IMG/VR virus record: IMGVR_UViG_3300021957_003133
Span: 1 to 64,000 of that record
Direction: 5' to 3' (one strand)
Length of the DNA: 64,000 nt
Origin: a virus
The position numbers were made by a program, and so were the translations under genes. Positions 17,069 to 63,969 of the stretch are shown here, piece by piece. The notes below the pieces were generated by a model, which was given only the letters and a program-made list of their open reading frames with translations, was not told where the DNA came from and did no database searches. How positions within the stretch are numbered: position 1 is the stretch's first letter; every line of letters starts with the position of its first letter.

Positions 17069-18172
17069 TTAGTTGGTTTCGTAACCAACAGCGTAATCGT
17101 GATCAACTATATCGCTACTACATTTGTATTGGCATTCTGTCCAACTAGTATTTTTGTTGTCTAGGTTATTAAAGAATGATTCCCAAATTGGATCATTTAA
17201 TACTTGTTCTAATGTTCTTTCAGTTAGATCTAATCGTGACTGATTTACAGTGAAGAAATCATCTTCAAAACTTATATGTTCAGCATTTGATGTTAGACTA
17301 CTGTAAGGTAATCCTTTCCAACTACAAGGGTATAATATTCCATTGGCATTAACATACATTCCCTGCGTGCCTATCAGACACAACGGAGTTATTGCACGAT
17401 TGTACTTATCCTGAACCTTATTAAAATGTATTTCTTTGGTTTTTATGTAGTCCGAATTGTCTAACTGCCTTGAAGTTATAGGAATCATTATCCTTTCATA
17501 CCTATTAGATGAGCTAACGAACTCTGCTCTGGGCTCTAAAGGATCAGTAGCACCACCATAAGTTTCATCATACTTGCTACCAAATTTAGTACTTTTAGTT
17601 AGCTGTACAGCATCACATCCCCTCTGTTTAGCTTCGTCGACGATGGCGTTGATTTTATCTTGATTGTATTTAAAAATAATAGTAGCCCAATGAACAAAAG
17701 CTGTTGACTCTTTGCTCATTATTTCCATACCTAACATTATGCTGGACCACGAACTGTTAATCCTATATATGTTGTTTGACTCTTCATCAAATCCGTCTAT
17801 GCTAAAATTTACAGTATCTCTGTCATTACTGATACTAGCAAACCGTTTCCACCACGCTTCATCCTTATAACTGCCGTTGGTTATAGTAAACAGATGTATG
17901 TCAGGGTTTGAAGTTTTAATGTATTCAACTATGTCTAGATACTCTTTGTTGTATATAGGATCCCCTAAATCACCACACATAGTAATACGTTTGACGGTGT
18001 TCTTTAACAGTTCGGGTGACAGTATTTTTTGGAACTCTGCTAGTGTTATATCACGGTTTAGTTTTAATTGATCCTTGTATTCTGTTCGAGGACAGCGAGG
18101 GCACTTCAAAGTACATTTGCTAGTGATACCAAAGTGCCAATGGTACAGTTGCCAAGGATATACTAAATTCAT
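17069..18172 (-). CDS. Radical SAM protein with C-terminal SPASM-like cysteines
   Basis: The 367-residue protein has the radical SAM CX3CX2C cluster motif at C20, C24 and C27 (KCTLKCPRCPRTEY), which holds the 4Fe-4S cluster that cleaves S-adenosylmethionine. MCGDLGDPI near residue 85 replaces the usual GGEP motif. Near the C-terminus PLCLIGTQGMYVNANGILYPC and WTECQYKC look like a SPASM/twitch auxiliary-cluster domain in the usual order, core first. Its start overlaps the stop of the SDR gene by 4 nt. Enzymes of this class modify peptides, sugars or other small molecules; the substrate cannot be told. It differs clearly from the other six radical SAM proteins of the window, where the auxiliary module comes first. 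Confidence 0.88.
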   Translation of the reverse strand: MNLVYPWQLYHWHFGITSKCTLKCPRCPRTEYKDQLKLNRDITLAEFQKILSPELLKNTVKRITMCGDLGDPIYNKEYLDIVEYIKTSNPDIHLFTITNGSYKDEAWWKRFASISNDRDTVNFSIDGFDEESNNIYRINSSWSSIMLGMEIMSKESTAFVHWATIIFKYNQDKINAIVDEAKQRGCDAVQLTKSTKFGSKYDETYGGATDPLEPRAEFVSSSNRYERIMIPITSRQLDNSDYIKTKEIHFNKVQDKYNRAITPLCLIGTQGMYVNANGILYPCSWKGLPYSSLTSNAEHISFEDDFFTVNQSRLDLTERTLEQVLNDPIWESFFNNLDNKNTSWTECQYKCSSDIVDHDYAVGYETN

Positions 18173-18798
18173 CGTGTTAAACTTATCTTAGTGATAAGAT
18201 TTTTTTTGTCATGTAGTATTTGATCAAACACAGGGATTAGGTCTTCAGTTTGCATATGAGACATTTGATCGTACAAGTCGTTGACTTTATCTTCCGGTAC
18301 ATTACCTCGATTACGATTAAAGTTTGTTTTAGTTAGTCCAGGATGCATTATTGTAAATCCTATGTTTTTATCTCGTAATTCGTATGATATAGTACTCATA
18401 AATGCGTCTAAACCGTGTTTACTTGTTCCATATACGCCGTATCCAGGATGGTACCCATCAACCACTTGACTACCTAATACAATGACTTTACTCCAAGGTT
18501 TAAACATACGTTGCTGTATATACTTGTGTATTAAAATAATATTGCTAGTAAGATTTACTGTCACAGTGTTGATAAAATCTGCAGATTTCATTGTAACAAA
18601 AGGAGCTCTTCCATTGGTATCTACACCAGCACATAATATTAAGTAGTCATAGGATTTAAAATCTACTGTGCTAATGTCCAAGTTTGCGAGATCTAATTCT
18701 TGTCGTGTTGGAGCAGTAACTTGGTAAGCATTACTTTCTAAGTGTTGTTTGAACTGTTTGCCAATGCCTGAACTACCACCTGTCAAAAATACATTCAT
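18169..18798 (-). CDS. Short-chain dehydrogenase/reductase (SDR)
   Basis: The 209-residue protein has the classical SDR features: TGGSSGIG near residues 6-13 for nucleotide binding, LILCAGV (NAG position, with C-A-G), a serine in VIVLGSQ, and the catalytic YGTSK (YxxxK), followed by HPGLTKTNF (PG motif). It is slightly short for the family (about 250). It should oxidise or reduce a hydroxyl or keto group with NAD(P). It begins at the last base of the gp46 stop and overlaps the next radical SAM gene by 4 nt, so it is embedded in the recombination operon. Joint action with the adjacent radical SAM enzyme on a sugar or nucleotide is a reasonable inference only. Confidence 0.9.
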   Translation of the reverse strand: MNVFLTGGSSGIGKQFKQHLESNAYQVTAPTRQELDLANLDISTVDFKSYDYLILCAGVDTNGRAPFVTMKSADFINTVTVNLTSNIILIHKYIQQRMFKPWSKVIVLGSQVVDGYHPGYGVYGTSKHGLDAFMSTISYELRDKNIGFTIMHPGLTKTNFNRNRGNVPEDKVNDLYDQMSHMQTEDLIPVFDQILHDKKNLITKISLTR

Positions 18799-20567
18799 TA
18801 GGCTAGCTCTACATCAGTGTCATACATAGTAAATCCGTTTTCTTTGACTACTGTCATAATGTTATTTACACGACCTGCCAATTCGTCTCTATGCGATACT
18901 AACCAAATCGATTTGTTATTCTCTCGAGCCATTTTCTTAAGTATACTCATAGCACTTTCGACACCACTAGCATCCATGCCTGAGTCAACTAATTCATCAA
19001 TGAACAACAAGTTGATTGGCTGATATAAACTTTCCCACACATCACGGAATGCCCAACTTAAACTTAATATCAATCTATTACGTTCGCCCCTTGACAGATT
19101 GTCAAAGTCTAAATCTCTACCTAGTTCGGTAATCTCAACAGTTAGATCATTCAGGAAGGTAACTGAATGGGGGAGACCTATACGATCAAGATACTGTCCT
19201 AGGCGAGCATTTAGATAACTCAAGTTCTGATCAATGATTCTCTTACGTACAAAACTATCTTTGTTTGTCAACAGTTTATACAAGAAGTCCTGATGCTCTT
19301 GCATACGTTGATATTCATTGATTTTATCATAATTAATTTCTTCTGCAGTCATATCTTCCATTTCTGCAATCTGTTCAACATAAGGATCTTCCTCTTTGGC
19401 TTTGCTAGTTAGCTGTGTTTCTAAGTTGGCCACGGAACTTCTATGATGGATAGCATCTTCGTGCTTAGGATAAAATGTTTTAGGTTTCTCTCCTAACTCA
19501 CCTAACTCAACCAACGCAGTTTCTAATTCCTCAAGTTCACCTTGATGTTTTTTATGCAGTGTGTCAGCTTCAGTGAAGCTATCTTGTTTACCTTGTAATA
19601 CTTCTTCGTGTTTTTCATCATGTAGTTCTTGCCCACATGCATAACATTTGTGTTCTCGTAACTGATCTATTTCACTTTGTAGTTTTTGCAGATTATTGTC
19701 TTCTCTCGCAACATCTTTCTTAATACGTACTGTTAAATTTGCAATTTCTGCAATTTCTGTTTCTTTTTTTGCATATTCTGCAAGATCTTTGTGTTGTTCA
19801 ATTTCACTATCAATATCAATTTTTAATAGTTCATCTAGTGCAGACTGTAACTCCTCTATTCCTTCCTGATGTTTTTTCTGCCATAACTGCTGTCTACGTT
19901 TTAGACTGTCAACTTGGCTTTGCATTTTGCTATTTGTTTCTTGTATACCTTTGATTTTATATTCTTCTTCTTTGATTAAATCACGTATACGTTTTTGTTC
20001 TTCTTTAAGACTTTCTGCTTTTTCACTCAGTACAGTGATACCTAATAATTGTTCGATTATAGCACGCTGATCGTTGGGTTTCAGTGAAAGGAAAGGCTCA
20101 GTATATGTGTTTAGTGCAACAACATGCTTGAACATTTCATGTTTCATGTTAAGCAGACGCTCAATCTCTGCTTGTGTTTCACGACTATCGCCTTGAGCAC
20201 TATCCTCTTGTTCTTGTTCTTCACCGCCTACATAAAACTTTAACACATTCTTTTTACGTCCACGTTCAATCTTATAGTCAACGCCATTGTGTTCAAAATC
20301 AACAGTGACTAACATAGCTTTGCCATTTGTTTTATTAACTAGGTTATCGCGTCTGATATTAGTTAATGCTACACCATAGAAAGCATATGAAAGGGCATTA
20401 ATGATAGTGGTCTTACCAGTTCCGTTACGGGCGCCACTATCATCGCCTCCGAGGTCTATATTCTTTCCTAATACCAATGTGAGGTCATCGCGGTCAAACG
20501 CCACTGCTTGTGTTGAATTACCAACACTCATAAAGTTTTTAACTGTTAAGTTCTTTATTTTAAACAT
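18798..20567 (-). CDS. gp46: Recombination endonuclease subunit gp46 (Rad50-like)
   Basis: The 589-residue protein is an SMC/Rad50-type ATPase. It has Walker A GARNGTGKTT at residues 45-54, long coiled-coil arms on each side of a central zinc-hook CxxC (HKCYACGQE, near residue 310), the ABC signature LSRGERNRLILSLSWAF, and Walker B plus D-loop INLLFIDELVDSGMD. With gp47 it processes DNA ends for recombination-dependent replication and degrades host DNA. Length is close to T4 gp46 (560). Its start overlaps the end of the preceding radical SAM gene by 8 nt. The separation of gp46 from gp47 by a radical SAM gene is unusual. Confidence 0.96.
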   Translation of the reverse strand: MFKIKNLTVKNFMSVGNSTQAVAFDRDDLTLVLGKNIDLGGDDSGARNGTGKTTIINALSYAFYGVALTNIRRDNLVNKTNGKAMLVTVDFEHNGVDYKIERGRKKNVLKFYVGGEEQEQEDSAQGDSRETQAEIERLLNMKHEMFKHVVALNTYTEPFLSLKPNDQRAIIEQLLGITVLSEKAESLKEEQKRIRDLIKEEEYKIKGIQETNSKMQSQVDSLKRRQQLWQKKHQEGIEELQSALDELLKIDIDSEIEQHKDLAEYAKKETEIAEIANLTVRIKKDVAREDNNLQKLQSEIDQLREHKCYACGQELHDEKHEEVLQGKQDSFTEADTLHKKHQGELEELETALVELGELGEKPKTFYPKHEDAIHHRSSVANLETQLTSKAKEEDPYVEQIAEMEDMTAEEINYDKINEYQRMQEHQDFLYKLLTNKDSFVRKRIIDQNLSYLNARLGQYLDRIGLPHSVTFLNDLTVEITELGRDLDFDNLSRGERNRLILSLSWAFRDVWESLYQPINLLFIDELVDSGMDASGVESAMSILKKMARENNKSIWLVSHRDELAGRVNNIMTVVKENGFTMYDTDVELA

Positions 20568-22092
20568 ATGATCTTAATTCTTTAAACTCAGGAAACATTT
20601 CAACAAAATTCTCGTTACGATACTGATCTTTCTCATCATTTAACCTAAAGAACTCTTTAAGCAAATGGCTTTGATTACTGCTGTTCATATATTGTAACAC
20701 ATCTTGCCACTGGGTTACAAGTTTTTCACTACCAGAAATACTTGTTAACCAATTAATGTGATCTGTTATTGTTTTGGTTGCTTGCTGTTTAAATACGTCA
20801 GGTAAGACTCTTAGATCAAAGTTGCTAGGACTAACGAGTGTGTTAATGATTAGCCTTGATGGGTCTAGTTTTTTATCTAGTATCCACTGTTTTTGTAGTT
20901 GCGGTAAATTAAAAATGTTTAACATATGAACAGTACTAAGAATACTAAAATCAACGATATTTTTTATTTTTTCGTAGTTTTGTTCTATCTCTTGGTATAC
21001 GGATCCACCACGAACGTATCCAGCCTGTGCTCCTATTAGATCTATACTAGCCCAAACCTCAACGTTAGAAAATTGTTTCCAGTAGTCTATCACATTGTGA
21101 TTTTTATACGTTACCTTGGTTAAATTTGTTGAATAAAGTAACTTAATATCTGTTCTGTTCCGTGACAATAATAAATCTAGTATTTGATAGTGTTCTCTCA
21201 TCAACAAAGGCTCGCCACCAGCAAAATATATTTGATCTAAATAATCTAGGTTGTCTCTAACATAATCAATAGTCTTAGAAATCTCTGCTGAGTTTAGTTT
21301 TAGTTCAACGTATCTGTCGTCATTATATATTTTCTTTTCTTCCTGTGCTATTTTACTGCTATACTTTCCGCTACACATCCTACACATTAGATTACATACA
21401 TTTGACGCACGAAAGTCTAGGTATCTAAACTTAAAATCCTCAAATGTTCCGTCCTCAAGTGTTTGCTCAACCAAGGGCAAGTATTTTTCAAAGACCTCGT
21501 TTGATCGTTGACGTTGAGATTTTATTTTTGAATCTTCTTTATGCCAACAGATTGAACAGGCATCGGGTCTTTCACCTTGTAGCATCTGCTGTCTGATCAG
21601 TTTCATTGGCTTACTGTTTGCAATGTCTGATAAATTGTCATTCTTGATTGAGCCAATATGGTATGCTTCGTCTGATGCACAACAAAGTCCTACACTACCT
21701 TGAGAATTAATATACATATGTACCCAAGGCAAAACACACACAGTGTCTTTGTTGACTGCGGTGTAGGTCTTTTCAAAGTTGCCCTCAATAATGAGATATG
21801 ACAATGCTTTATCGTGTGGGCAATACAAGTCTTTAATTTTTTCTAGCACTGTTTTTATTTCTTTATCTGTAGTTTCAACTGTTACAAAAAAATTAGGAAT
21901 ATCCAATGACGACAAAATCTCTTGTAGTTTTAAAACTGCTATTCCTGGTGATGTTGCTGTGTTAAATTGATCTGAGGTATATTGAATAGTTAATTTAAAG
22001 TCACTAGGCATTGGTTCTTTCTTCAAATCTTTTATTTGGTTGTATAACCAGACTTCACCCTTTGAGAAGTAATCGTCGAGATTAATGATCAT
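20560..22092 (-). CDS. Radical SAM protein with N-terminal SPASM-like module, between gp47 and gp46
   Basis: The protein has 510 residues. An N-terminal region of about 110 residues without recognised domain (MIINLDDYFSKGEVWLYN...) is followed by a SPASM-like cysteine module: C119 in CVLPWVHM, C137/C138 in GLCCAS, C179 and C182 in CSICW. The radical SAM core comes next, with C233, C237 and C240 (CNLMCRMC) and FAGGEPL. The C-terminus (FVEMFPEFKELRSYV) and several core phrases are nearly those of the protein at 59671-60990, so the two are paralogues. It overlaps gp47 by 4 nt and gp46 by 8 nt, and must be expressed with them. The substrate is unknown. Confidence 0.9.
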   Translation of the reverse strand: MIINLDDYFSKGEVWLYNQIKDLKKEPMPSDFKLTIQYTSDQFNTATSPGIAVLKLQEILSSLDIPNFFVTVETTDKEIKTVLEKIKDLYCPHDKALSYLIIEGNFEKTYTAVNKDTVCVLPWVHMYINSQGSVGLCCASDEAYHIGSIKNDNLSDIANSKPMKLIRQQMLQGERPDACSICWHKEDSKIKSQRQRSNEVFEKYLPLVEQTLEDGTFEDFKFRYLDFRASNVCNLMCRMCSGKYSSKIAQEEKKIYNDDRYVELKLNSAEISKTIDYVRDNLDYLDQIYFAGGEPLLMREHYQILDLLLSRNRTDIKLLYSTNLTKVTYKNHNVIDYWKQFSNVEVWASIDLIGAQAGYVRGGSVYQEIEQNYEKIKNIVDFSILSTVHMLNIFNLPQLQKQWILDKKLDPSRLIINTLVSPSNFDLRVLPDVFKQQATKTITDHINWLTSISGSEKLVTQWQDVLQYMNSSNQSHLLKEFFRLNDEKDQYRNENFVEMFPEFKELRSYV

Positions 22093-23105
22093 AAATTCCT
22101 ATAGATGTCTAACAATAGATTAGGATCATATGTATCGCTTTCTATGCTGGTTAATTGATTTGTTACGATAGTGTCTATAGACTCAAATGCTATGTTACCA
22201 AGCTGGATATCTTCGCCCATAGTAACTTCTTTGACTGGTAATAAACTTAGCTCTCTTAATTTGTACGTGTTAACAAATGTTTCTTTAATAAATGTTGCTT
22301 CTTCATATGAAATATCAATATCTAATTTAACACGACAATGCATACCTGGCTGTAGTAAATCTTCTGGCTTTTTAAGTACAGCACTTAGATCATAAACTCT
22401 ATATCTAGGTTGATCCGGCCATGCATGATGTACTGGTTTCTCTCCCCAAGCTAACACAGCCATACCTCTGTCATCATCTCCAGCATCTGCATAATTATGA
22501 GGAAAGCAGTTACCAACATAGGTAATGTTTTTGTTAGTTTGACGTTTGTGGAAATGCCCACTAAACATGTGCCCAACACCTTTGAAATGATCTCTTGATA
22601 TCTCCCCTACATCAGGCATTTGCACCATAGCATTCATATAAAAGCTAGGAAGTTCAAAGTGCCCAAACATATATTCAGCATCAATCTTTTGTACTTTCTT
22701 ATGATCATCGCCTACTAACCAAGGAACAAATGATACTCCACCTTCCTTGTAAAAGTCGTTGACTATTTCAATGTTCGGAATATGTCTCGCCCACTCTGCT
22801 GACTGTATGTCACGTTTATCTCTGTAGTACAAGTCATGATTACCAGGAATAAAGAACACACGATCAAATGCTTTACCTAACAGTTCAAGTGCCTGTAAGC
22901 TATAGTTTAATGTAACGATATTGATTGCGGCTCTGTTGTTGTGCCAGTCGCCCAGCATCAGACAAGTTTCACAACCTTCTTCTTTAGCTTTGGTAATAAA
23001 CCATTTTACAAAGTTCAAACAATCTTCGTTATGAGTCGTTGAGTTAGACTTTAACCCAAAGTGAATGTCTGTTAGAATTGCCGCTTTTTTAAATAGATTT
23101 GCCAT
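22089..23105 (-). CDS. gp47: Recombination endonuclease subunit gp47 (Mre11-like)
   Basis: The protein (338 residues) is a calcineurin-type phosphoesterase, partner of gp46. All metal-binding motifs are present: DIH (D13, H15), GDWHN (D53, H55, N56), GNHD (N89, H90, D91), GHFE (H149) and SGHFHKR (GHFH near 183-186). Length equals T4 gp47 (339). Its product provides the nuclease of the Mre11-Rad50-type complex. The start at 23105 lies only 6 nt after a TATAAT box, so either translation starts on a leaderless message or transcription comes from further upstream through gp55. AAGG lies 12 nt before the ATG. Confidence 0.96.
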   Translation of the reverse strand: MANLFKKAAILTDIHFGLKSNSTTHNEDCLNFVKWFITKAKEEGCETCLMLGDWHNNRAAINIVTLNYSLQALELLGKAFDRVFFIPGNHDLYYRDKRDIQSAEWARHIPNIEIVNDFYKEGGVSFVPWLVGDDHKKVQKIDAEYMFGHFELPSFYMNAMVQMPDVGEISRDHFKGVGHMFSGHFHKRQTNKNITYVGNCFPHNYADAGDDDRGMAVLAWGEKPVHHAWPDQPRYRVYDLSAVLKKPEDLLQPGMHCRVKLDIDISYEEATFIKETFVNTYKLRELSLLPVKEVTMGEDIQLGNIAFESIDTIVTNQLTSIESDTYDPNLLLDIYRNL

Positions 23106-23111
23106 ACATAT

Positions 23112-23140
23112 ATTATACCTTATTATTGACTAAGTGTCTA
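23112..23140 (-). promoter_or_regulatory. Host-type promoter before gp47
   Basis: On the minus strand TAGACA (23140-23135), 17 bp, then TATAAT (23117-23112). The box ends 6 nt before the gp47 ATG, so initiation would fall about at the start codon. The -10 is perfect and the -35 has one mismatch to TTGACA. Confidence 0.45.
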
Positions 23141-23158: not shown

Positions 23159-24031
23159 TTATTCTTCGGCTCCGCCACCACCCCAGTTGTTTAGTCTGGT
23201 ATAACTAGGAGTAAAGTCGTTCATTTCTAATATGTCATCACGGATATTTTGATTTCGTTTTTCTATGTTAAGCACACGAGTAAACGAGTTAGTAATGGCC
23301 GCTGTGTAATAGGCAAACGGATTCTGACTTTTTGATTCGTCGAACTGTAAGCCAATTTGGCTTAACTGCAACAAAGCTTGACTACGCATCTCGTCGTTGT
23401 AGGTATAACCACGCCAGTTTGATCTAGTAGCATAACGCTCGCACAGTTTAATAAACATGTGTGCTAGTTTAGGTGTCATTGCTCCATGTTCTTTGTTAAA
23501 CTTACCTTTTTCTATAGTGCCTTTCCAATGACTTTTACCTGTGATATAAGGTTCCGAATCTTCATTGACACAGTAATGAAAGAAAGGAGGAAAGTTTACC
23601 TTGACATACTTGGTTGCTCCTTTGGCTTTTGACGGGTCATCATCATATTCTGTTGTTATAGCATCATCCTCAGCTTCGTCTATTGCTTTTTGATCTGCTT
23701 TAGCCTGTTTAACATCGTCAATTGGAATGTGCTCAAAAGTCATAACTCGAAACACGATGTCAGTTATTGGGATATCTTTAGTGGGTGTTAGTACTTCATC
23801 CATTTTCTTTTTGACACCCTCTAGTGCAAACTTTTCTATTTCTAATTTAGCCAACCTTTCTGCACGCATTTTCCTTGCTTCAGCAATGGTTTTCTTAGTA
23901 ATAGCATTTACATCCAACAGTATCATGTCATAGCTAGTAACTTCGGGCTTTACAAAGCTACAGTATGTGAGCTTACTCTTGTGAATTTCTTTTAGTATAT
24001 CTTTATTATTTAGATAATTAACTTTTCTCAT
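23159..24031 (-). CDS. gp55: Late-transcription sigma factor gp55
   Basis: This 290-residue protein carries the diagnostic C-terminal block of marine gp55: LLQLSQIGLQFDESKSQ then NPFAYYTAAITNSFTRVLN near residues 237-255 and EKRNQNIRDD. NPFAY.T....F.R is the sigma-region-2-like core-binding and promoter-melting segment also found in T4 gp55. It is longer than T4 gp55 (185); the N-terminal extension with MRKVNYLNNKDILKEIHKSK and FRVMTFEHIP is standard for marine homologues. gp55 directs host RNA polymerase to TATAAATA-type late promoters, and many such boxes occur in this window. It heads the leftward replication operon, divergent from gp48, with AAGGA before the ATG. Confidence 0.92.
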   Translation of the reverse strand: MRKVNYLNNKDILKEIHKSKLTYCSFVKPEVTSYDMILLDVNAITKKTIAEARKMRAERLAKLEIEKFALEGVKKKMDEVLTPTKDIPITDIVFRVMTFEHIPIDDVKQAKADQKAIDEAEDDAITTEYDDDPSKAKGATKYVKVNFPPFFHYCVNEDSEPYITGKSHWKGTIEKGKFNKEHGAMTPKLAHMFIKLCERYATRSNWRGYTYNDEMRSQALLQLSQIGLQFDESKSQNPFAYYTAAITNSFTRVLNIEKRNQNIRDDILEMNDFTPSYTRLNNWGGGGAEE

Positions 24032-33864: not shown

Positions 33865-36800
33865 ATGGCCGCAAGAAAAAGTATAAATTTACTACCTGGA
33901 GTATTTAGGACTGACGTTAACGAGAAGTTCCTGAATGCCACAGTGGACCAATTAGTCAGTGAGCCGAGCCTCACAGACCTTTATGGTTATATTGGTAGAC
34001 AATTTGCACCAACTTTTAAGAAAGGCGATAGCTACATCACAGAAGAAACAACATTACGCCAAGACTATCAGTTAGAACCAACTACAGTAATAAAAGATAA
34101 CGAAGGTAATACAACATTCTTTGCTAGTTATTTAGATTTTCTTAATAAGGTCAAATACTACGGCGGATATACTGAAGACCAAAGTAGATTGTTTGCTAGT
34201 GAATACTATAGTTTTGACCCACAAGTGTCACTTGACAAGTTTGTAAACTTTGGTCAGTATTACTGGTTACCCAATGGCCCGAGTACGGTACAAGTAAACA
34301 CAACTGGTGTTGAATTAATTAAAGATTATACAGTTAGTCGTAACGATAACCAAAATCAATATGATTTTACTTCATCTGGAGAACAAAATAATACATTGGT
34401 ATTAGCCAGAGGAGGTACATATACGTTCGCAGTAGATCAATCAGCTGGTTTTTGGATACAAACAGAACTAGGTATAGACGGACTAGTTAATGTTACACCA
34501 ACTATCTCTAGTAGAGCTGTATTAGGCGTAGAAAATAATGGTGCTACCAATGGTACCGTGACATTTACTGTGCCGCAATCAGACGCACAAGATAGATTCC
34601 TTTCACAAAATACGATAGCAACAGTTGACTATGCACTACCGTTACCATTCAGTAAAGTACAAAATAGATTACTAAGTGATTTCTTGGTAGAGTATCCACA
34701 GTTTGCTGGACTAGCTGGGCAATTAGATGGTAAGACAGCAGTGTTTGTAGAACAAGACACACTAACTAATGTAGAGAATGCTTGGACAGTAGCATACGAA
34801 AACAGCGGCGAGTCAGTTGAGTTTGATTTTGGTGAAACAGTTCCTCAAGGTAGTAGATATGGAGTATGGCAGATTCAATTGATTACTAGCGGGTCTGACA
34901 AACTTATTAATATATTCCCAACAACAGTTATTCCGTTCGACAATAAAGTTTACATTAAGTCTGGTATAAATTTTGTAAACAAAGAATTTTATAAAGAGTT
35001 CACTGAGTTTCTTGAACCAGTTCCGGTTATCAGCAGTATACTAGATACGTTATACATACAGGATGGTGATAGGGCAGATATCTACGCTAAAATTAAAATT
35101 GTAGACTTTAATAATTTTACCATTGATGTCAACGCAGATATTTTAGGAGAGAATACATATACTAGTCCCAACGGAGTAGAATTTACTTCAGGATTAAAAA
35201 TTAAATTCGACAGTGACGTTACTCCTACAACGTATCAGGAAAAAACATACTATGTAGAAAATGTTGGTGAAGGAATCAGACTTGTCGATGAAACACTATT
35301 AGTAACTCCTGAAACATACAACGACGAAGTAGCTACTAATTATCCAATACAAAGAATAATGCTTACTAAAGCAACAACTGCAGAAATTACTGCAGGTACT
35401 GTAATCACAGTTGGTGATAATTCCATCGAAGTAAACACTGATATAGCTATTGGTGCAACAAAAATAACAACACTTGATTCGATATCCGCAGTTGAAAAAG
35501 GTCAGGTAGTTACAGGTGCTGGAATACAATCAGCCACAGTGGTATATGATGCATTTGCAGATACTATATTCCCAGATTACATCACTATAAAAAGAGACGC
35601 ACTTGATTTAAATGCATGGTCACGTAGTAATCGCTGGGTACACAGTGCAATCATCGAAGCTTCAGCAACTTATAACAACGAGGTATTAGTTCTTTCACAA
35701 GACTTACGTGCTCAGCGTCCGATAGTACAGTTTGAAGGCGACTTGCAGTTATTTAATCACGGTCGTATTGGCAAAAGGCATGTCGACATAGTAGATACTC
35801 AAATCACAGACGCTTTTATAGAACTAGAAGGAAAAGTACTAACAACTGCTTTTGGAGTTACATTGTTTGACGGCATGAGAGTTTTATTTGCTAATGATAA
35901 TGATCCTTTAGTAAGAAATAAAATATATAATCTTAACCTAGTTCAATATGAAGTTGATGCAGAAGGATTTCCAGAAGGCACATTTCATATCAAATTAACA
36001 AAAGCTGATGATGGTGATGGTCAAGAATGGGATTCAGTTGTAGTTGGGCTAGGTGCGTCTAAAGGACATTCTTACTGGTATAACGGAACTGAATGGAAAC
36101 TAGCACAACAAAAAACAGGCACACAACAAGATCCTTTGTTTGATGTTTATGATACTGCAGGCAAAAGTTTAAGTAATCTTGATTACTACCCACGTAGTAG
36201 TTTTGTAGGAACAAAACTATTTGGGTACGACAGGGGAACTACAGGGGTCAATGACAAGATATTAGGATTCCCATTAAACTACAGAAGTTTTAGTAGTCAA
36301 GGCGACATACTCTTTGCTAATTATTTCAACACTGATATATTTAATTATGTGGTTGGATTAGAAACTAAAAAAATTAATGTAAACACCGGTTATCTGCAGA
36401 GCATACAAACTGACAGAACAACCAAACCTAAAAATACCTGGCAAACAGTCAATGAATCTAGTAGACAGTATCAGGTATTCGAGTTCGAATATACGGCCAC
36501 TACTGATAATCCTTTTGCATTAGACATCACTCCTAAACAACAAGATACTCATGGATTTACAGACACTGTACCCTACGTTAAAGTTTATCAAAATCAAAAG
36601 ATATTAAAACAAACACATTGGTCCATTAGTGCTACAAATAGAATAACTGTGTCAGCCACATTGGCTGTAGGTGATATTATAAATGTATTAGTGTACAGTG
36701 AACAGGTCAGTGAACAAGCATACTATCAAGTTCCTTTGAATTTAGATCTAAATGCACAGAACACAGACATAACAACATTAACTCTTGGGCAGGTTAGAAA

Positions 36801-53630: not shown

Positions 53631-53658
53631 AAAAGCACCTTAAGGGGTGCTTTTTTTT
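53631..53658 (+). terminator. Rho-independent terminator
   Basis: AAAAGCACC (53631-53639) pairs with GGTGCTTTT (53646-53654), loop TTAAGG, then eight T in all (53651-53658). It separates the fibre unit from the glycosyltransferase/radical SAM operon. Confidence 0.92.
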
Positions 53659-53675
53659 GACTCAAACTAATGGCC

Positions 53676-53683
53676 GATAAATA
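53676..53683 (+). promoter_or_regulatory. Late promoter motif GATAAATA, 5 nt before an ATG
   Basis: GATAAATA ends 5 nt before the ATG at 53689. It is the only promoter-like signal seen for the whole overlapping operon to the right edge, so these genes should be late. No ribosome site lies between box and ATG, in keeping with a leaderless start. Confidence 0.55.
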
Positions 53684-55907: not shown

Positions 55908-56784
55908 TATAGCTGATTTAGATTGTGTTTACCTCAGCTACGACGAACCTAAAAAAGAAGAGTTTTGGATTAAAATTTCCAATATGGTTCCTTGGGCAAC
56001 TCGTGTCGACGGAGTTAAAGGCAGTGATGCCGCACATAAAGCCGCGGCTGATTCTAGCACTACAGATAGATTTATTCTAATAGACGGTGATAACTTACCC
56101 GACACAGAGTTCTTTAATCAACAGTTGGTATTAGATGACAACAATCAAGATTGTGTATTCCGTTGGAAAGCCAAGAATAACATAAACGGATTACAGTACG
56201 GCAACGGTGGATTAAGTTGTTGGACAAAAGAGTTTATTTACAATATGAAAACTCACGAGAATACAGATGGTGATGAAGCCAATGATATAGAGTTTTGCTT
56301 TTATGAAAACTATTGGGCAATGCACGACTGCTATTCAACTACATATCCAAATGCTACACCTTTTCAGGCTTGGCGAGCAGGATTCCGTGAAGGTGTTAAG
56401 ATGTGTTTAGATAGAGGAACAAAACCTAGTCCAGCAGACTTTAAACAAAAAGCACATGACAGAAATTTGGATCACCTCAGCGTATGGCATAATGTAGGTC
56501 GAGATGTTGAAAATGGTATATGGGCTATGGCAGGTGCAAGACAAGGCACAGTAATGACTATGTTGTCAGACTGGGATCATCGAGAAGTACAATGGTTTGA
56601 CAACTTAGAAAAGATATGGAATGAAGTAGAGTCACAGGATGCTGAAACTATAGCACATGAGAACGGTACAGAACTCAGAAAATTAGAGTTACCTGCACTT
56701 AAATATGATAGCGAACAAAGTAAGTTTTTCAAACATCATTACAAAAGCGGATTTAACAATAAAGGAATAATGGAACGTGAGTAA
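55891..56784 (+). CDS. Glycosyltransferase-like protein (GT2/GT-A type)
   Basis: The preferred start is the ATG at 55891 (MKKIVDIADLDCVYLSYDEP); in-frame ATGs at 55843 and 55879 lie within the preceding gene and would add residues of unlikely composition. The product has 297 residues. VYLSYDEP, PWATRVDGVKGSDAAHKAAA and DRFILIDGDNLPDTEFF (DxD) follow GT-A order. The conserved PFQAWRAGFREGVKM and LDHLSVWHNVGRDVENG segments follow, which I recall from glycosyltransferase-like genes of marine phages. It overlaps the first radical SAM gene by 8 nt. Confidence 0.72.
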   Translation: MKKIVDIADLDCVYLSYDEPKKEEFWIKISNMVPWATRVDGVKGSDAAHKAAADSSTTDRFILIDGDNLPDTEFFNQQLVLDDNNQDCVFRWKAKNNINGLQYGNGGLSCWTKEFIYNMKTHENTDGDEANDIEFCFYENYWAMHDCYSTTYPNATPFQAWRAGFREGVKMCLDRGTKPSPADFKQKAHDRNLDHLSVWHNVGRDVENGIWAMAGARQGTVMTMLSDWDHREVQWFDNLEKIWNEVESQDAETIAHENGTELRKLELPALKYDSEQSKFFKHHYKSGFNNKGIMERE

Positions 56785-58171
56785 AAGTAAATTTATGAGC
56801 TCTGCAGAAGAGATGAAGGAAAAATTAGGGCCTAGTCTCTGCCTGGCAAAATGGCAACAGGTTAGTTTACATTTACCTACTGGACTCAATAATAGCTGTT
56901 ATCATCCACCGTTGCATGAAATTGATGTAAAACCGCTAGAGTTCCATCCCAGTGCTTTGCATAATACTGTTCATAAGAAAGAGCAACGGAAAAAAATGCT
57001 AGAGGGTGAGAAACCTAAAGAGTGTAACTACTGTTGGACTATGGAAGATGCTGGACATCTGAGCGATAGACACTATCGTAGTGGTGAGCCCTGGGCCGCA
57101 GAACATTATGATAATATTGTTAACCAACCATGGGACAAAGATGTTACTCCAAGTTACGTGGAAGTAAATTTTAGTCACGGATGCAACCTTGCTTGTAGTT
57201 ATTGTAGTCCACAGTTTTCAACTGAATGGAATAAAGACATAGAACGCTGGGGTGCTTACCCGACAAAAAGTCCACATAATGACCCTATGCATTTTAAAGG
57301 ACGTCGACAACCTATACCAGTTAGAGAAAACAATCCTTATGTAGAAGCATTTTGGCAGTGGTGGCCCGAGCTATACCCTGAACTTAAACACTTCCGCATG
57401 ACAGGTGGTGAGCCTCTCATGGACAAAAACACACATAGAGTATTTGACTACATATTAAGTAGTCCTAAACCAGACTTACACGTTGATGTTACTAGTAATT
57501 TTTCAGTAGAGCCAAAACTATTTAATCGCTATATTGACAAGGTGCAACAACTTTGTACTGGAGAACGAATAGAACATTTTATGCAATATGTAAGTGTTGA
57601 CACTGGAATAGCTGAACACGCTGAATATATAAGACATGGGTTAAACTTTAAAAGATTAGAAAACAATGTGTATAGATATCTTGAAGAAGTGCCACATAGA
57701 AATAGTTTAACATTTATCTTAACCATGAACAATCTTAGCTTATTAGGACTACAAAGACAACTAGAATGGATCCTAGAACTAAGACGAGTATATAATACAG
57801 ACGGTTATCAAAAAATATGGTTTGATACACCGGTGTTAAGAACTCCGAGTTGGCAAAGTCTACAGATACTTCCAGAAAGCTATGTAGGTATATTAGAGAA
57901 TGTTATCAAATGGATGAAACTGCACAAGCTAGATGAAAACAGTGATAGATTTGACGGGTTCAAAGATTACGAAATACAGAGAATGGAACGTGATTGTGCT
58001 TGGATGAAGAAAGGTAAAAAACTAAATGAAAAATATTTACACGAAACCCGTGCAGACTTTTATAATTTTTTCAATGAATATGATAAGCGTAGGAAGATTG
58101 ACTTTTTGACAGTGTTTCCACAGATGAAAGAGTTCTGGCAGGAGTGCAAATGGCATGCCGAAAATAGCTAA
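56777..58171 (+). CDS. Radical SAM protein, SPASM-first, CxH subgroup
   Basis: GTG at 56777 is chosen because AAAGGA lies 10 nt before it; the ATG at 56795 has no such site. The protein has 464 residues. The N-terminal module has C22 (CLAKWQQ), C41 in CYHPPLHEID and the pair C83/C86 (CNYCW). The core has C136, C140 and C143 (CNLACSYC) and FRMTGGEPLM. The usual double cysteine of the N-terminal module is C-Y-H here. A helical C-terminus ends in FPQMKEFWQECKWH. It is a visible paralogue of the next gene (shared LHNT..KK..R..M..GE.P..C.YCW). The substrate is unknown. Confidence 0.9.
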   Translation: MSKSKFMSSAEEMKEKLGPSLCLAKWQQVSLHLPTGLNNSCYHPPLHEIDVKPLEFHPSALHNTVHKKEQRKKMLEGEKPKECNYCWTMEDAGHLSDRHYRSGEPWAAEHYDNIVNQPWDKDVTPSYVEVNFSHGCNLACSYCSPQFSTEWNKDIERWGAYPTKSPHNDPMHFKGRRQPIPVRENNPYVEAFWQWWPELYPELKHFRMTGGEPLMDKNTHRVFDYILSSPKPDLHVDVTSNFSVEPKLFNRYIDKVQQLCTGERIEHFMQYVSVDTGIAEHAEYIRHGLNFKRLENNVYRYLEEVPHRNSLTFILTMNNLSLLGLQRQLEWILELRRVYNTDGYQKIWFDTPVLRTPSWQSLQILPESYVGILENVIKWMKLHKLDENSDRFDGFKDYEIQRMERDCAWMKKGKKLNEKYLHETRADFYNFFNEYDKRRKIDFLTVFPQMKEFWQECKWHAENS

Positions 58172-59510
58172 GGAAACAGACTTAGAGTATAAGCATAGAG
58201 TAATTGACATTAAAAGTGAAAGTTTCTGTGCGGCTAAATGGTATAACGCTACTATATGGTTGGGAAGTGGTATGACTACTAGTTGCCATCATCCGTTGCC
58301 ACACCCTATTGACATAGAAGCTATTAAAACTAATCCAAGTGCTTTACATAACACTGACAAGAAAAAACAAGAACGAGAACAGATGCAGAAAGGTGAACGC
58401 CCTAGTGGATGTGAGTACTGCTGGAAAGTAGAAGACATGGGAACTGATGCTATATCAGATAGGGTTTATAAAACAGTTATATATGAGGACAAAGAAAATG
58501 ATGAAGCTTTTAACACACCTTGTCAAGAAGATGTTAATCTTAAAACATTAGAGATTGCTTTTGATAGAACTTGTCAACTTGCTTGTAGTTATTGTAACCC
58601 TGCGTTTAGTAGTACTTGGGTTAAAGATGTTAAACGTAACGGAGCATATATTGATTTAGTTTCAGATGGTAGGAATCATTTTACTCACACGCACGACAGT
58701 AGTCAGTTGTATACTTTTAGTGAAACTAATCCTTACATTGAAGCATTCTTCAAGTGGTGGGAAACAGACTTACACAAAACATTAAATGAATTACGTATCA
58801 CTGGTGGCGAACCTCTTATGAGTGGACACACGTGGAAGTTGATTGAATGGTTTAAAACTAATCAAGGGAGATCAAAAACTAAATTAGCGATTAACAGTAA
58901 CTTGGCTATCTCTCAAGAAAAGCTCGCAGAGTTTATAGACAGTATACAATCACTTCCACACTTAGAAGTGTATACCAGTAATGAAAGTGTTGGAGCACAG
59001 TCAGAGTATATAAGAGATGGTATAAATTATCTCGAATGGTGTCAAAATATCGAAACCTTAATGGATTGTAGTTCTGTAAAAATACTACATGTGATGTTCA
59101 CTATTAACAGTCTTTGTTTAGACAGCATAACTGATCTATTAGACTATCTTATGAAACTAAAACACCGGCATGGTAAGTTCAGTCTGAGTTTTAGCTTAAA
59201 TATATTAAGATTCCCTAGTTTTCAAAGTGCTACAGTACTACCTGATGACATTAGAAATCAGTATAAAGAAAAATTACAGTCTTGGTTAGATCTAAATAAA
59301 GATGATCTAACATTACACGAGTACGAAGTAAATCATGTAGAAAGATTAGTTGATTATTTAGACATAGTTAAAACTCCGCATGCAGGTGCTGATGAAATAA
59401 CAACTCTACAGAACGATTTTAAACAGTTTTACAAACAATATGATGAACGTAGAGGAAAGAACTTTACAGAAACATTTCCTAGATTAACAGAATGGTATAA
59501 TACATTATGA
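58155..59510 (+). CDS. Radical SAM protein, SPASM-first, CxH subgroup
   Basis: The 451-residue protein carries C25 (FCAAKWYNATIW), C44 in SCHHPLPHPID and the pair C86/C89 (CEYCW) before the core cysteines C140, C144 and C147 (CQLACSYC) and RITGGEPLMSG. The arrangement copies that of the preceding protein, with CHH in place of CC. The C-terminus (NFTETFPRLTEWYNTL) also corresponds. AGGAG precedes the ATG; the gene overlaps the previous one by 17 nt. Two such similar enzymes in tandem suggest related substrates or a heteromeric complex; both are inferences. Confidence 0.9.
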   Translation: MPKIAKETDLEYKHRVIDIKSESFCAAKWYNATIWLGSGMTTSCHHPLPHPIDIEAIKTNPSALHNTDKKKQEREQMQKGERPSGCEYCWKVEDMGTDAISDRVYKTVIYEDKENDEAFNTPCQEDVNLKTLEIAFDRTCQLACSYCNPAFSSTWVKDVKRNGAYIDLVSDGRNHFTHTHDSSQLYTFSETNPYIEAFFKWWETDLHKTLNELRITGGEPLMSGHTWKLIEWFKTNQGRSKTKLAINSNLAISQEKLAEFIDSIQSLPHLEVYTSNESVGAQSEYIRDGINYLEWCQNIETLMDCSSVKILHVMFTINSLCLDSITDLLDYLMKLKHRHGKFSLSFSLNILRFPSFQSATVLPDDIRNQYKEKLQSWLDLNKDDLTLHEYEVNHVERLVDYLDIVKTPHAGADEITTLQNDFKQFYKQYDERRGKNFTETFPRLTEWYNTL

Positions 59511-59674
59511 GTGAAGAAATAAGCACACAACGTATTGCAATAAGTACAGACGGCGTTGAAATAGACAGCAGTCAAGGTGACTTATTGTCAGAAGCAGTCC
59601 TACTTGGCACCATTGTTATAGTAGTAGCTGTATTATACATAGGTAAGAAATGGATAGACAGGAAGTTTAAATGA
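59507..59674 (+). CDS. Small single-pass membrane protein between radical SAM genes
   Basis: The ATG at 59507 overlaps the previous stop (ATGA) and its own stop overlaps the next ATG (ATGA). The frame encodes 55 residues: a polar N-terminus (MSEEISTQRIAISTDGVEID), one hydrophobic segment of about 17 residues (AVLLGTIVIVVAVLYIG) and a basic end KKWIDRKFK. That is a typical N-out/C-in single-pass layout by the positive-inside rule. Perfect double coupling shows that it is real. It could anchor the radical SAM enzymes to the membrane, or be their substrate; neither is shown. Confidence 0.8.
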   Translation: MSEEISTQRIAISTDGVEIDSSQGDLLSEAVLLGTIVIVVAVLYIGKKWIDRKFK

Positions 59675-60990
59675 GTGACAAAGAAACAGACGACTACTAT
59701 AAAAATCACGAGTATCACGATCGTAAACCTGTGTACATTGATGAAAAAGATTTAAGGACAGATCAATTAGATAGACTTACAAAGAGTGAAACATTCTGTA
59801 TGATCCCTTGGATACACATGCATGCATTCCCCAATGGGCAAGCATTTCCTTGCTGTCTTGCTGACAGTGATCATCCTATAGGCGACTTACATAAGAATAC
59901 TATTCGAGAAGTATGGAATGACACAGCATACAAAACAATGCGTAAGAATATGCTTGAAGAAAAGAGCTGTAAAGAATGTACTAAATGTTATGAACAAGAA
60001 GATATGGGTTTTGTTAGTATGCGTAATTCATCAAACAAATCTTTTGGACATAATATTGGAATAGTGGATGACACCAAACCAGATGGTACCTTTGATGATT
60101 TCAAACTACGTTACTATGATATTAGATTTAGTAACTTATGCAATATGAGTTGTCGTACCTGTGGTGGTTGGTTTTCTAGTTCGTGGCATGACGAAGAAAC
60201 AGCATTATATGGTAAGCGTGAGTATCCTAAATTTATGTTTGCTGGCAAAGACAAAGAAGATATGTGGAATCAATTACAAGAACACATTCCTTATCTAGAA
60301 CAAGTATACTTTGCTGGTGGTGAACCTTTGATAATGGAAGAACACTATCGCTTGTTAGATGAACTAGAAAGACAAGAGTTATTCAATGTTAGACTACAGT
60401 ATAATACTAACTTTAGTAAGCTAAAACTAAAAACAAAACATGTGTTTGACTATTGGCAGAGATTTAAAAATGTGTCAGTGGGTGCTAGTTTAGATGCCAT
60501 GGGAGCTAGAGCAGAATACATGCGTAAAGGCACAGTGTGGGCAGAAACTGTTAGTAATAGAGAACGGATGTTACAAGAATGTCCTAACACAGACTTTTAT
60601 GTTAGTAGTACCGTTAGCATTTACAACGCACTACATGTCATGGACTTCCATCGTGACTGGGTTGAACGTGGATTAATCAAAGCACAAGACTGGAACATCA
60701 ATATATTACAGGGTCCTAACAGAGACAGGATTGATGTGCTACCAAAGATTTATAAAGAACAAGTAAAAGAAAAGATACTAGAACATATTGAATGGTTACG
60801 CCCACAGGATCATTTAAATCGTGCTGTTGTTGGTTATGAAAGCATATTGACATTTATGGAAAATCAAGACCAACAAAACTTGTTACAAGAGTTCTTAGAA
60901 GTAAATGATAGACACGACGACTATAGAAAAGAACAGTTTGAAACGGTGTTTCCTGAATACAAGGAGTTAAGAACATATGTCTCTACCTAA
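59671..60990 (+). CDS. Radical SAM protein, SPASM-first, CC subgroup
   Basis: The 439-residue protein has an N-terminal module that reads like a complete SPASM domain: C43 in FCMIPWIHMHAFPNG, C61/C62 in FPCCLADSDHPIGDL, VWNDTAYKTMRKNM, then C100, C103 and C106 (CKECTKC). The radical SAM core follows with C157, C161 and C164 (CNMSCRTC), AGGEPL at 215-220 and a helical C-terminus ending VFPEYKELRTYVST. In standard SPASM enzymes this module is C-terminal. Its closest relative in the window is the protein between gp46 and gp47. It has AGGAAG as ribosome site and overlaps both neighbours. Confidence 0.92.
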   Translation: MSDKETDDYYKNHEYHDRKPVYIDEKDLRTDQLDRLTKSETFCMIPWIHMHAFPNGQAFPCCLADSDHPIGDLHKNTIREVWNDTAYKTMRKNMLEEKSCKECTKCYEQEDMGFVSMRNSSNKSFGHNIGIVDDTKPDGTFDDFKLRYYDIRFSNLCNMSCRTCGGWFSSSWHDEETALYGKREYPKFMFAGKDKEDMWNQLQEHIPYLEQVYFAGGEPLIMEEHYRLLDELERQELFNVRLQYNTNFSKLKLKTKHVFDYWQRFKNVSVGASLDAMGARAEYMRKGTVWAETVSNRERMLQECPNTDFYVSSTVSIYNALHVMDFHRDWVERGLIKAQDWNINILQGPNRDRIDVLPKIYKEQVKEKILEHIEWLRPQDHLNRAVVGYESILTFMENQDQQNLLQEFLEVNDRHDDYRKEQFETVFPEYKELRTYVST

Positions 60991-62194
60991 GAAAATATGT
61001 ATGCTACCCTGGATCAGTATCGAAACATCACCTACTGGTACAGCACGTCCTTGCTGTCTGGCTAAGGATGAAATAACAAAACCTAACGGTGAAAAATATA
61101 AGTTAAAAGAAAATACATTAGAAGAAATTTATCATTCAGACTATATGCAAAATCTAAGACAGGAGTTTTTAGATGGAAATAAACCAGAGACTTGTCAACG
61201 CTGTTGGGATGAAGAAGCCGCAGGGCGTACCAGCAAACGTGTTAACAGTCAACTACGTCTAGGACAACACTACAAGAAGATTGATTTTCATAATACTGAT
61301 CCTGATCAACTTTGGTTTTTAGATCTTAAACTAGGAAACATATGTAATTTAAAATGTCGTATATGCGGAAGTTGGTCAAGTTCAAAGTGGGCAAAAGAAG
61401 AAGTAGCATACGTTGACAAGATATGGAAAGGCGATCCTAACTATAGAAGGAAAGAACACCTAGCATTTACATATCTCAAAGACGGTGCTTGGCCTCGCGA
61501 AAGTATTGACTTTTGGGACAACTTAAAAACACTACTACCTAATATCAAATACTTTGAATTTACTGGCGGAGAACCTTTCTTGATCAAACAACATTTTGAT
61601 CTACTAGAATATGCTGTTGAAAAAGGCTATAGTAAAAACATTGAAATACATTACAATACCAATGGCACACAGTTTCCTGAGTCTGCAGAGTTGTGGGACA
61701 ATTTCAAACATGTAGAAATAGCATTCAGTATTGATAATACAAATGAACGTTTTGAGTATGAACGTTATGGTGCCAATTGGCTAGAAGTACAAGAGAATAT
61801 TAAAAAGTTTACAGCTATGCGTAGTAGTAAGATATCAACACAGCTCTGTACTACAATGAATATACAGAACGTCTACTATCTGCCAGAGCTGTGTGAATGG
61901 ATCAATACACAGCAATTTGATTTCTTGTTCTTTAATATGTTGCACGATCCTTGGCACATGTGCGTCAGTAAGATGACCCCGCAAGCACAGAAATTAGTTA
62001 TAGATAGATTGACTAATCATAACTTTGATCCTAGACACAAGATAGAAGTTATGCGTATAGTTAAGTTCATTGAACAAGGTGAAGGCAGTGACGGTATAGA
62101 GTTTTTAAGACAGATGCAGAGGACCGATGATTATAGAGAACAAAGTTTCATTGACACACATCAAGAGATAGCTAAGGCAATGGGCTATGAGTAA
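60977..62194 (+). CDS. Radical SAM protein, SPASM-first, CC subgroup
   Basis: The protein has 405 residues. C8 (ICMLPWISIETSPTG), C26/C27 (RPCCLAKDE), EEIYHSDYMQNLRQEF and C73/C76 (CQRCW) form the N-terminal module; the core has C123, C127 and C130 (CNLKCRIC) and FTGGEPFLI. The N-terminal tail before the module is only a few residues, so this is the most compact member. AAGGAG lies 10 nt before the ATG, inside the end of the previous gene (14-nt overlap). Confidence 0.92.
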   Translation: MSLPKKICMLPWISIETSPTGTARPCCLAKDEITKPNGEKYKLKENTLEEIYHSDYMQNLRQEFLDGNKPETCQRCWDEEAAGRTSKRVNSQLRLGQHYKKIDFHNTDPDQLWFLDLKLGNICNLKCRICGSWSSSKWAKEEVAYVDKIWKGDPNYRRKEHLAFTYLKDGAWPRESIDFWDNLKTLLPNIKYFEFTGGEPFLIKQHFDLLEYAVEKGYSKNIEIHYNTNGTQFPESAELWDNFKHVEIAFSIDNTNERFEYERYGANWLEVQENIKKFTAMRSSKISTQLCTTMNIQNVYYLPELCEWINTQQFDFLFFNMLHDPWHMCVSKMTPQAQKLVIDRLTNHNFDPRHKIEVMRIVKFIEQGEGSDGIEFLRQMQRTDDYREQSFIDTHQEIAKAMGYE

Positions 62195-62678
62195 TATAGC
62201 ATTAGGATGTAGCCATACCTACGGTGTAGGAGTAGAAAAAGATGAAGCTTGGCCTAATCTACTTGGGCTAGTAAATTATGGAGTTCCTGGGTGTAGTACT
62301 GATTTAATTTGTCGCACCCTGCCTAAGATTTTAGAGAAAGAACAACCAGACATTGTGTATATACTTTGGCCTGATTGGACAAGATTTGAATATCGTAAAG
62401 ATGGAGAATGGATTCAATCACATCCAACAGACAGAAACAGAATTGAATTTATGGAAAGCCACCCAGAAGAATGGCTACGAGAAAATTTTAAACAGCAGGT
62501 AGCACGAGTAAACGAATTGTGTAAAGGTATAAAAGTTAACGCAATGACATTAGATGATTTGATCCCTTTCATTGACAATGCTGATATGTGGCCGCTCAGT
62601 AAATTAGGGCACCACTATGCTCCTGAATGGCACCATTGGGTGGCAGAGATATTTGAGAAACTGAATGAAGCAACCTAA
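62187..62678 (+). CDS. SGNH/GDSL-hydrolase-like protein
   Basis: The 163-residue protein has a block-I-like GCSHTYG with Ser9, NYGVPGCSTDLI (block II Gly), YILWPDWTRFEY at the block-III position, and a C-terminal histidine-rich end (LGHHYAPEWHHWVAEIF) that could supply the catalytic His, with Asp133 upstream. The usual block-III Asn is not evident. SGNH proteins remove or transfer acyl groups, often on glycans. It is short for the family. Sited between two radical SAM genes with overlaps of 8 and 14 nt, it may act on the same product. Confidence 0.65.
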   Translation: MSNIALGCSHTYGVGVEKDEAWPNLLGLVNYGVPGCSTDLICRTLPKILEKEQPDIVYILWPDWTRFEYRKDGEWIQSHPTDRNRIEFMESHPEEWLRENFKQQVARVNELCKGIKVNAMTLDDLIPFIDNADMWPLSKLGHHYAPEWHHWVAEIFEKLNEAT

Positions 62679-63969
62679 GAATAGACCAGAAACGCTGTGT
62701 ATGGCTCCGTGGACTCATACTTACCTATCGCCACAGACTGAACGTAGAATGTGCTGTGCTAGTCGTGAGGATGCACAATCATTTGAGCAGTATATAGATA
62801 CCAAAGCTGGCACAGGCAAATACCAACCAATCACTTTAGAAAAACACTGGAATTCAGACCATATGAAATCAGTGCGTAAACGCATGATGGCTGGAGAAAC
62901 CTTAAAGGAATGTGCCGTATGTAACGATAAGCTGTTGAATACTGATGTTTACCGTAGTTATTTCAACCGAATGTTTAGCGATAAGTATGATAGTATATGG
63001 GACACTACAGATGATACGGGCTACACCACAACAAAGCCTGTAAGCTGGGATTATAGATTCAGCAATCTCTGTAACTTTAAGTGTCGCACGTGCGGTGACA
63101 TGTTGTCAAGTGCATGGGAGTCAGAGCAAAGACAGCATAACACTATCAATTGGGATAATCCTAGAAACAATTGGATGAAACCCGACATTAGGAAACAGAT
63201 ATCTGAGTTTCAGGACAATCAAATTGAGAAAGAGTTCGCAGATGCTGTAGAATCTCATCAAATTGAGGAAGTATATTGGGTTGGTGGTGAGCCATTGATG
63301 TACGATCAACACTGGAGATACATGAAACGTATCGTTGATTTAGGAGATGGGAAAAATGTTTACGCTAGATACAACACAAATCTTAGTCGCATCAATTATC
63401 GCGGTATCAACCTCTATACTGATATTCTATCTAGGCTACAGGATTGGCAAATATGTGCAAGCCTTGATGGTACAGGAAGAATTGGAGAATATATCAGGAC
63501 AGGTCTCAACTATCAAACGTGGGTTGAAAACTTTAAGGAAGGTCTTAAGGGAGTTACTAACGATCGTCAAATGAGAATAGACTTTACACTTACCTTACCG
63601 GGTATGTTTGAGGTTAAAGAGATGGACAAGCTAGCTTATAATTTAGATAGTGAGATATTGGCCAAAGTAATATTCAGTTTCACACCAGACATCATTATGA
63701 GTCCGTTAGCACTGCCAAGGAAACTATTAGAAGAGTGGATTGATGATATATTAGAATCCAAGCTATGTAAACCTGTACTGATAGATATGCTTACCCAACT
63801 AAAAACAAGACCTACGTTCGAAGAACAATGGCCTGATACCTATCAAGAAAGTCTTGCAAAAGGCAAGCGTCGTGTGTTACAATTAGAGAGTATACGTAAA
63901 GATGAATTTACTTTAGCGGATATTTTAAAATCAAGGAAAGAAGTATATGAGTGGTATCAATCAATCTAA
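62665..63969 (+). CDS. Radical SAM protein, SPASM-first, CC subgroup
   Basis: This 434-residue protein has C12 (LCMAPWTHTYLSP), C30/C31 (RMCCASRED), HWNSDHMKSVRKRM and C83/C86 (CAVCN) as the N-terminal module, and C136, C140, C143 (CNFKCRTC) with WVGGEPLMYD as the core. The C-terminus is longer and more charged than in its relatives and lacks the FPE.KELR ending. It overlaps the SGNH-like gene by 14 nt and the next gene by 23 nt. A second open frame of 72 codons with an AGGAG site lies inside it (see findings). Confidence 0.91.
   Translation: MKQPKNRPETLCMAPWTHTYLSPQTERRMCCASREDAQSFEQYIDTKAGTGKYQPITLEKHWNSDHMKSVRKRMMAGETLKECAVCNDKLLNTDVYRSYFNRMFSDKYDSIWDTTDDTGYTTTKPVSWDYRFSNLCNFKCRTCGDMLSSAWESEQRQHNTINWDNPRNNWMKPDIRKQISEFQDNQIEKEFADAVESHQIEEVYWVGGEPLMYDQHWRYMKRIVDLGDGKNVYARYNTNLSRINYRGINLYTDILSRLQDWQICASLDGTGRIGEYIRTGLNYQTWVENFKEGLKGVTNDRQMRIDFTLTLPGMFEVKEMDKLAYNLDSEILAKVIFSFTPDIIMSPLALPRKLLEEWIDDILESKLCKPVLIDMLTQLKTRPTFEEQWPDTYQESLAKGKRRVLQLESIRKDEFTLADILKSRKEVYEWYQSI

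Follow-up and report, generated by a model that had tools for sequence, protein, structure and literature searches.

Why an enzyme gene should stand between the two genes of the gp46/gp47 nuclease is the question raised by the DNA analysed here (the window: 64,000 nt, positions 1 to 64,000 of IMG/VR record IMGVR_UViG_3300021957_003133, which is 115,466 bp long). The first-pass annotation had placed a radical SAM gene, hereafter rE, between gp47 and gp46 with overlaps of 4 and 8 nt, respectively, and both the open reading frames and the profile matches bear this out (Table 1). The gene is intact, running from an ATG start without frameshift to a TAA stop that lies within the gp46 start ATGTTTAA. 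Downstream of gp46 come an SDR gene, which overlaps it, and a second radical SAM gene, which overlaps the SDR gene, so that three metabolic genes are interleaved with gp47/gp46. The stretch 17069–18798 (minus strand) resembles a second cargo position, and radical SAM genes lie downstream of gp46 in six other records as well (L058, L059, L073, L079, L083, L179). Taken as a whole, the analysis makes it probable that rE is a cargo enzyme gene in a recurrent gp47/gp46 insertion slot, with a homing-type mode of entry, early or middle transcription and a role in surface decoration.

Table 1. Features of the rE locus and of the radical SAM cluster, in window coordinates.
Feature	Position	Strand	Remarks
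Second radical SAM protein, C-terminal SPASM-like	17069..18172	-	PF04055 E 3.9e-10; overlaps SDR gene
SDR-family oxidoreductase	18169..18798	-	PF00106 E 1.1e-21; overlaps gp46 end
gp46, SbcC-like ATPase subunit	18798..20567	-	phrog_77 E 1e-98
rE, N-terminal-twitch radical SAM protein, 510 aa	20560..22092	-	NF033640, PF13186, PF04055
GGEP SAM-binding motif, residues 292-295	21208..21219	-	invariant in A1; G292-E294 invariant in A3
Radical SAM CX3CX2C motif, C233, C237, C240	21373..21396	-	invariant in A1 and A3
N-terminal twitch/SPASM domain, four cysteine ligands C119, C137/138, C179, C182	21532..21747	-	conserved in 47 homologues
Type-I N-terminal domain, residues 1-112, alpha/beta	21757..22092	-	common to slot-resident GT-B-like family F
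gp47, SbcD-like nuclease subunit	22089..23105	-	phrog_100 E 1.8e-60
Sigma-70-like promoter, TAGACA-N17-TATAAT	23112..23140	-	6 nt before gp47 ATG; best match of the region, 11/12
gp55-like late sigma factor	23159..24031	-	phrog_12791 E 2.6e-78; upstream of gp47
Intrinsic terminator	53631..53654	+	stem-loop dividing tail genes from radical SAM cluster block
GATAAATA, late-promoter-like motif	53676..53683	+	5 nt before 53689, first gene of radical SAM cluster block
Five NF033640 genes (56777, 58155, 59671, 60977, 62665) and SGNH-like gene (62187)	56777..63969	+	NF033640 E 9e-87 to 3e-121
rL3, closest paralogue of rE, within radical SAM cluster	59671..60990	+	36% identity; sister clades

The family to which rE belongs is well defined. 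The NF033640 model (N_Twi_rSAM) covers residues 116–506 in a full-length match (E 4.2e-113, 378.4 bits, above the curated whole-protein cut-off of 170 bits), and Pfam assigns a SPASM domain (PF13186) to residues 119–183 and the Radical_SAM domain (PF04055) to residues 230–352, placing the twitch/SPASM domain N-terminal to the core; with rE, the window holds six genes of this type. The peptides FAGGEPL, CNLMCRMC and FPEFKELRSYV, singled out by the first-pass annotation, are all found in rE, conservation extends to all seven of the expected cysteines and to the GGE motif, and the sequence has the at least four cysteines called for by one auxiliary [4Fe-4S] cluster. This architecture is neither a chance product nor an assembly error, because it recurs in independent IMG/VR records and is under purifying selection. 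An orthologue in L276 and L277 is 56% identical over its full length and keeps both the 4- and the 8-nt overlap, a partial orthologue in L278 has an identical 8-nt overlap with gp46, and dN/dS among rE-type genes is near 0.1 (dN 0.14 and dS 1.50 for L137 versus L278). Three more records, forming one phage cluster, carry only the C-terminal 94 residues of an rE-type gene at the same junction, a decayed copy with a methyltransferase gene alongside. A peptide-pattern search with rE alone retrieved no relatives, and an alignment of the six paralogues was too diverse to serve as a query; the relatives were reached via the 59671–60990 and gp46 proteins, in records that carry many NF033640 genes.

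Compared across phages, the gp47/gp46 junction is a recurrent cargo slot in a group of T4-like and jumbo aquatic phages. When 93 junctions were reduced to 68 phage clusters at 95% flank identity, the slot proved empty in 36, filled in 31 and in both states in one, in records that are fragments and may share a sampling bias; with no gene in between in those 36 clusters, the occupant lacks the constant presence of a gp46/gp47 subunit. Empty junctions have a gap of −8 to 15 nt, whereas filled ones span 632–3337 bp and hold from one to four unrelated genes, which invariably lie after the gp47 stop and before the gp46 start. The contents include NF033640 and other radical SAM genes, SGNH-like, methyltransferase, DegT aminotransferase and epimerase genes, the GT-B-like family F and an HNH-like ORF, and intact NF033640 genes occupy the slot in eight clusters. 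The fit is close at both ends: the first slot gene usually has its start in or at the stop codon of gp47, and the last gene, as in the case of rE, sometimes ends on the TAA of the gp46 start.

Related phages also preserve traces of how the cargo arrives. L078 and L080 form a near-identical empty/filled pair (97% flank identity), in which the left boundary falls exactly at the gp47 stop and gp46 has diverged over its first ~120 nt; copying of the gp46 start along with the cargo would produce this pattern. In L169 and L079 a truncated gp46 5′ end of 23 codons has been left behind, and L079 retains a gp47 3′ remnant as well; at 7500–10000 of L079 two slot cassettes stand in tandem, joined via the gp46 5′ and gp47 3′ remnants. 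In L071 and L179 the first ten gp46 codons are followed by an HNH-like ORF, called from a match to PHROG 1271 (5e-5) and a DH...N...N pattern that is HNH-like by eye; a PDB sequence search and Pfam gave no match for this ORF. A SegE GIY-YIG homing endonuclease follows gp46 in L276, a phage with an rE orthologue. The gp46/gp47 remnants and the HNH inserts in the gp46 5′ end point to homing-type recombination. Neither the slot of the window nor the genes directly beside it include a homing endonuclease, and the rE junction itself shows no scar, so that such an entry route for rE is inferred from these relatives.

The promoter motifs flanking the two sets of radical SAM genes differ in type. A −10 element lies 6–8 nt before the gp47 start in most relatives, and gp47 appears nearly leaderless, both in the window (23105–23140) and in most of them. 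At the other end of the window, stem-loops like the terminator at 53631–53654 recur in several relatives. In its exact form the T4 late consensus, TATAAATA, is depleted from the window and uninformative, but its variant GATAAATA is informative: of nine sites in the genome, four lie no more than 20 nt from an ORF start, against 0.1 expected, and two of these four are in the tail-gene region. The variant is conserved in six relatives (L010, L014, L012, L016, L020, L024), and the arrangement GATAAATA-N5-ATG at 53676, 49101 and 30011 (plus strand) is probably the late promoter of this phage, almost devoid of a leader. The tail region also contains an ORF of 4525 codons (33865–47442, plus strand). 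Some relatives have a sigma-70-like promoter before the radical SAM cluster block. The motifs in the window suggest a split in timing, with rE early or middle and the cluster late.

The roughly 110 extra N-terminal residues reported earlier for rE amount to about 112, the NF033640 HMM beginning at residue 116, and are predicted to fold as an alpha/beta domain (pLDDT mostly 62–84). Profile comparison shows this domain to be shared with family F, which fills the same slot in other phages: hhalign gives 96.6% and 5e-10 (ten null families scored 0.06 or worse), and HMM matches to family F reach 7.7e-13, with a reciprocal match at 1.3e-6. The domain makes up the N-terminal half of family F and is also found in other radical SAM proteins at or adjoining gp47/gp46; of 17 distinct matches 15 are at the gp47/gp46 locus, as counted over loci gathered around gp46 and around the cluster rather than genome-wide. 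Family F itself matches GT-B glycosyltransferases weakly (E 6e-4, TM 0.35). On the simplest reading, an acceptor-type domain resident in the slot would have been acquired by incoming radical SAM genes, or would have passed the other way. A second type of N-terminal extension, found in L114, L175, L029, L035, L176 and L193, proved on testing to be unrelated to the rE domain.

How rE relates to the radical SAM cluster bears directly on its origin. The first-pass annotation had taken rE and rL3 (59671–60990) for paralogues, one of them duplicated into this phage's early operon. The paralogy stands: the two proteins share 35–36% identity over rE residues 113–510, against 26–28% for the other four NF033640 proteins of the cluster, and in an IQ-TREE phylogeny of 66 rows rE and its slot orthologue (100/100) fall not in a distant clade but as sister to the entire 59671 clade (97/91). 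The duplication is not supported, since the split predates the radiation of that clade, whose members are 42–89% identical to the 59671–60990 protein; the tree shows rE as an old sister lineage of this conserved cluster gene. A recent copying of 59671–60990 within the genome into the recombination operon, retained for the sake of early expression, would agree with the sister clades and with the difference in promoter type. It is nevertheless highly improbable, given an identity of only 35%, a branching that precedes all sampled 59671 orthologues, a phage (G006) that carries orthologues of both genes, and remnants and orthologues that place rE-type genes in the slot of several phages. The junction has, moreover, independently received other radical SAM genes, which the tree places in other clades near different cluster genes, and a single clade for all slot radical SAM genes is rejected (AU test, p=1.4e-9). 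By this phylogeny, radical SAM genes of several lineages entered the slot separately. The cluster region itself (53966–69700 of the record) has a surface-decoration-like composition, with GT-A-like DxD proteins recognised by eye, the five NF033640 genes, several SGNH-like genes, a NodU-type carbamoyltransferase and an epimerase. Outside the window, G000 89428–91308 (minus strand) encodes a probable B12-binding radical SAM protein, as judged by sequence motif.

The same comparisons bear on what rE does. The tight coupling of its translation to that of gp47/gp46, with orthologues keeping the overlaps of 4 and 8 nt, could be taken to mean that rE works with the gp46/gp47 nuclease, for instance on DNA ends or as a regulator of the complex, and owes its position to co-assembly. 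This is very unlikely: elsewhere the slot is empty or holds SGNH, methyltransferase, aminotransferase, epimerase or GT-like genes while gp46/gp47 are equally conserved, and the rE paralogues are clustered with glycosyltransferase-like, SGNH and carbamoyltransferase genes. A complex of rE with gp46/gp47 appears unlikely as well, because half of the related phages have no gene at this position and others have unrelated ones. The early-type promoter could instead suit an early anti-defence or host-takeover enzyme, viperin-like or modifying tRNA or nucleotides, with the slot as an accessory island for such genes. A weak profile similarity to viperin-family models (E 5e-6) lends this some support, although the score falls far below the cut-off (25.9 bits against 180 for NF038283), the best fold matches are peptide-modifying RS-SPASM enzymes and not viperin, and the slot companions are genes of sugar and surface type, so that an anti-defence role is improbable. 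For a cargo enzyme acting in surface decoration, the cluster paralogues adjoin glycosyltransferase-like, SGNH, carbamoyltransferase and epimerase genes; among 96 neighbours of NF033640 genes in bacteria, a tally of Pfam families yielded no functional theme. Against a sugar role, the core of rE is modelled with confidence and its nearest solved folds suggest peptide modification. The substrate class is named tentatively, at somewhat less than even chances, as glycans, glycolipids or peptides of a surface-decoration pathway.

A sequence of events can be proposed for rE as cargo. A break in the gp46 5′ end, made in some cases by a homing endonuclease, would be repaired from another phage, and the repair would copy in the cargo and, with it, a new 5′ end for gp46; the chimaeric rE would have formed at the gp47/gp46 locus. 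The gene would then be transcribed and translated with gp47/gp46 from the sigma-70-like promoter, early or middle in infection. In the last and weakest steps, the product would hold the radical-SAM [4Fe-4S] cluster and one auxiliary cluster, and would modify a glycan, glycolipid or peptide to which its N-terminal domain brings it. A bolder version, nearly as likely true as false, has the junction as a dedicated cargo-exchange site, where breaks in the gp46 5′ end import decoration enzymes along with a replacement gp46 start, and where a GT-derived slot-resident domain is passed between unrelated enzymes to give chimaeras like rE. The gene broken in this version, gp46, itself belongs to the break-repair machinery. 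With rE as slot cargo, one odd gene order would become a testable rule for the acquisition of accessory enzymes by large phages: they enter the operon of a core repair complex at a precise, coupled slot, and empty/filled pairs and scars show the route. The expansion of twitch radical SAM genes in aquatic phages, so far unexplained, would be tied to mobile, surface-type cargo, and the rE family would carry a transferable acceptor-type domain.

Already known are the NF033640 family, phage hot spots, and the expansion of radical SAM genes in T4-like and giant phages of aquatic habitats; the open-access literature searched contained no description of the gp47/gp46 cargo slot, of its scars or of the shared N-terminal domain. 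With its N-terminal twitch, CX3CX2C and GGEP motifs rE resembles other NF033640 proteins, but adds the type-I domain of ~112 residues and sits between gp47 and gp46. The MoaA/NifB/PqqE family protein of KVP40 has the same fold (22% identity to rE), but is shorter (329 aa in the model library) and lacks this domain. Many radical SAM genes per phage are likewise known from a T4-like environmental genome with 12 (PMC5332604) and from giant phage 332-Vera with eight (PMC12390700); the available portions of these two papers do not describe a gp47/gp46 slot. The free-standing homing endonucleases of T4 (seg/mob), as covered in part of PMC2988022, insert with co-conversion of flanks, and exchange near essential genes bounded by homing endonuclease genes is also known (PMC10448857). 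The slot shares with these the insertion between core genes, the replaced flanks and an HNH or GIY-YIG enzyme at some junctions; it differs in that its cargo consists mostly of metabolic enzymes and that the window's slot is without an endonuclease, and the part of the T4 list consulted in PMC2988022 includes no gp47/gp46 site. Marine T4-like phages have a host recognition cluster with radical SAM cassettes (PMC7029224) and hot spots, one of them between gp46 and gp25 (PMC3037559). These islands likewise carry radical SAM and glycosyltransferase cassettes in variable regions, but they are located elsewhere, whereas here the slot is the gp47/gp46 junction itself.
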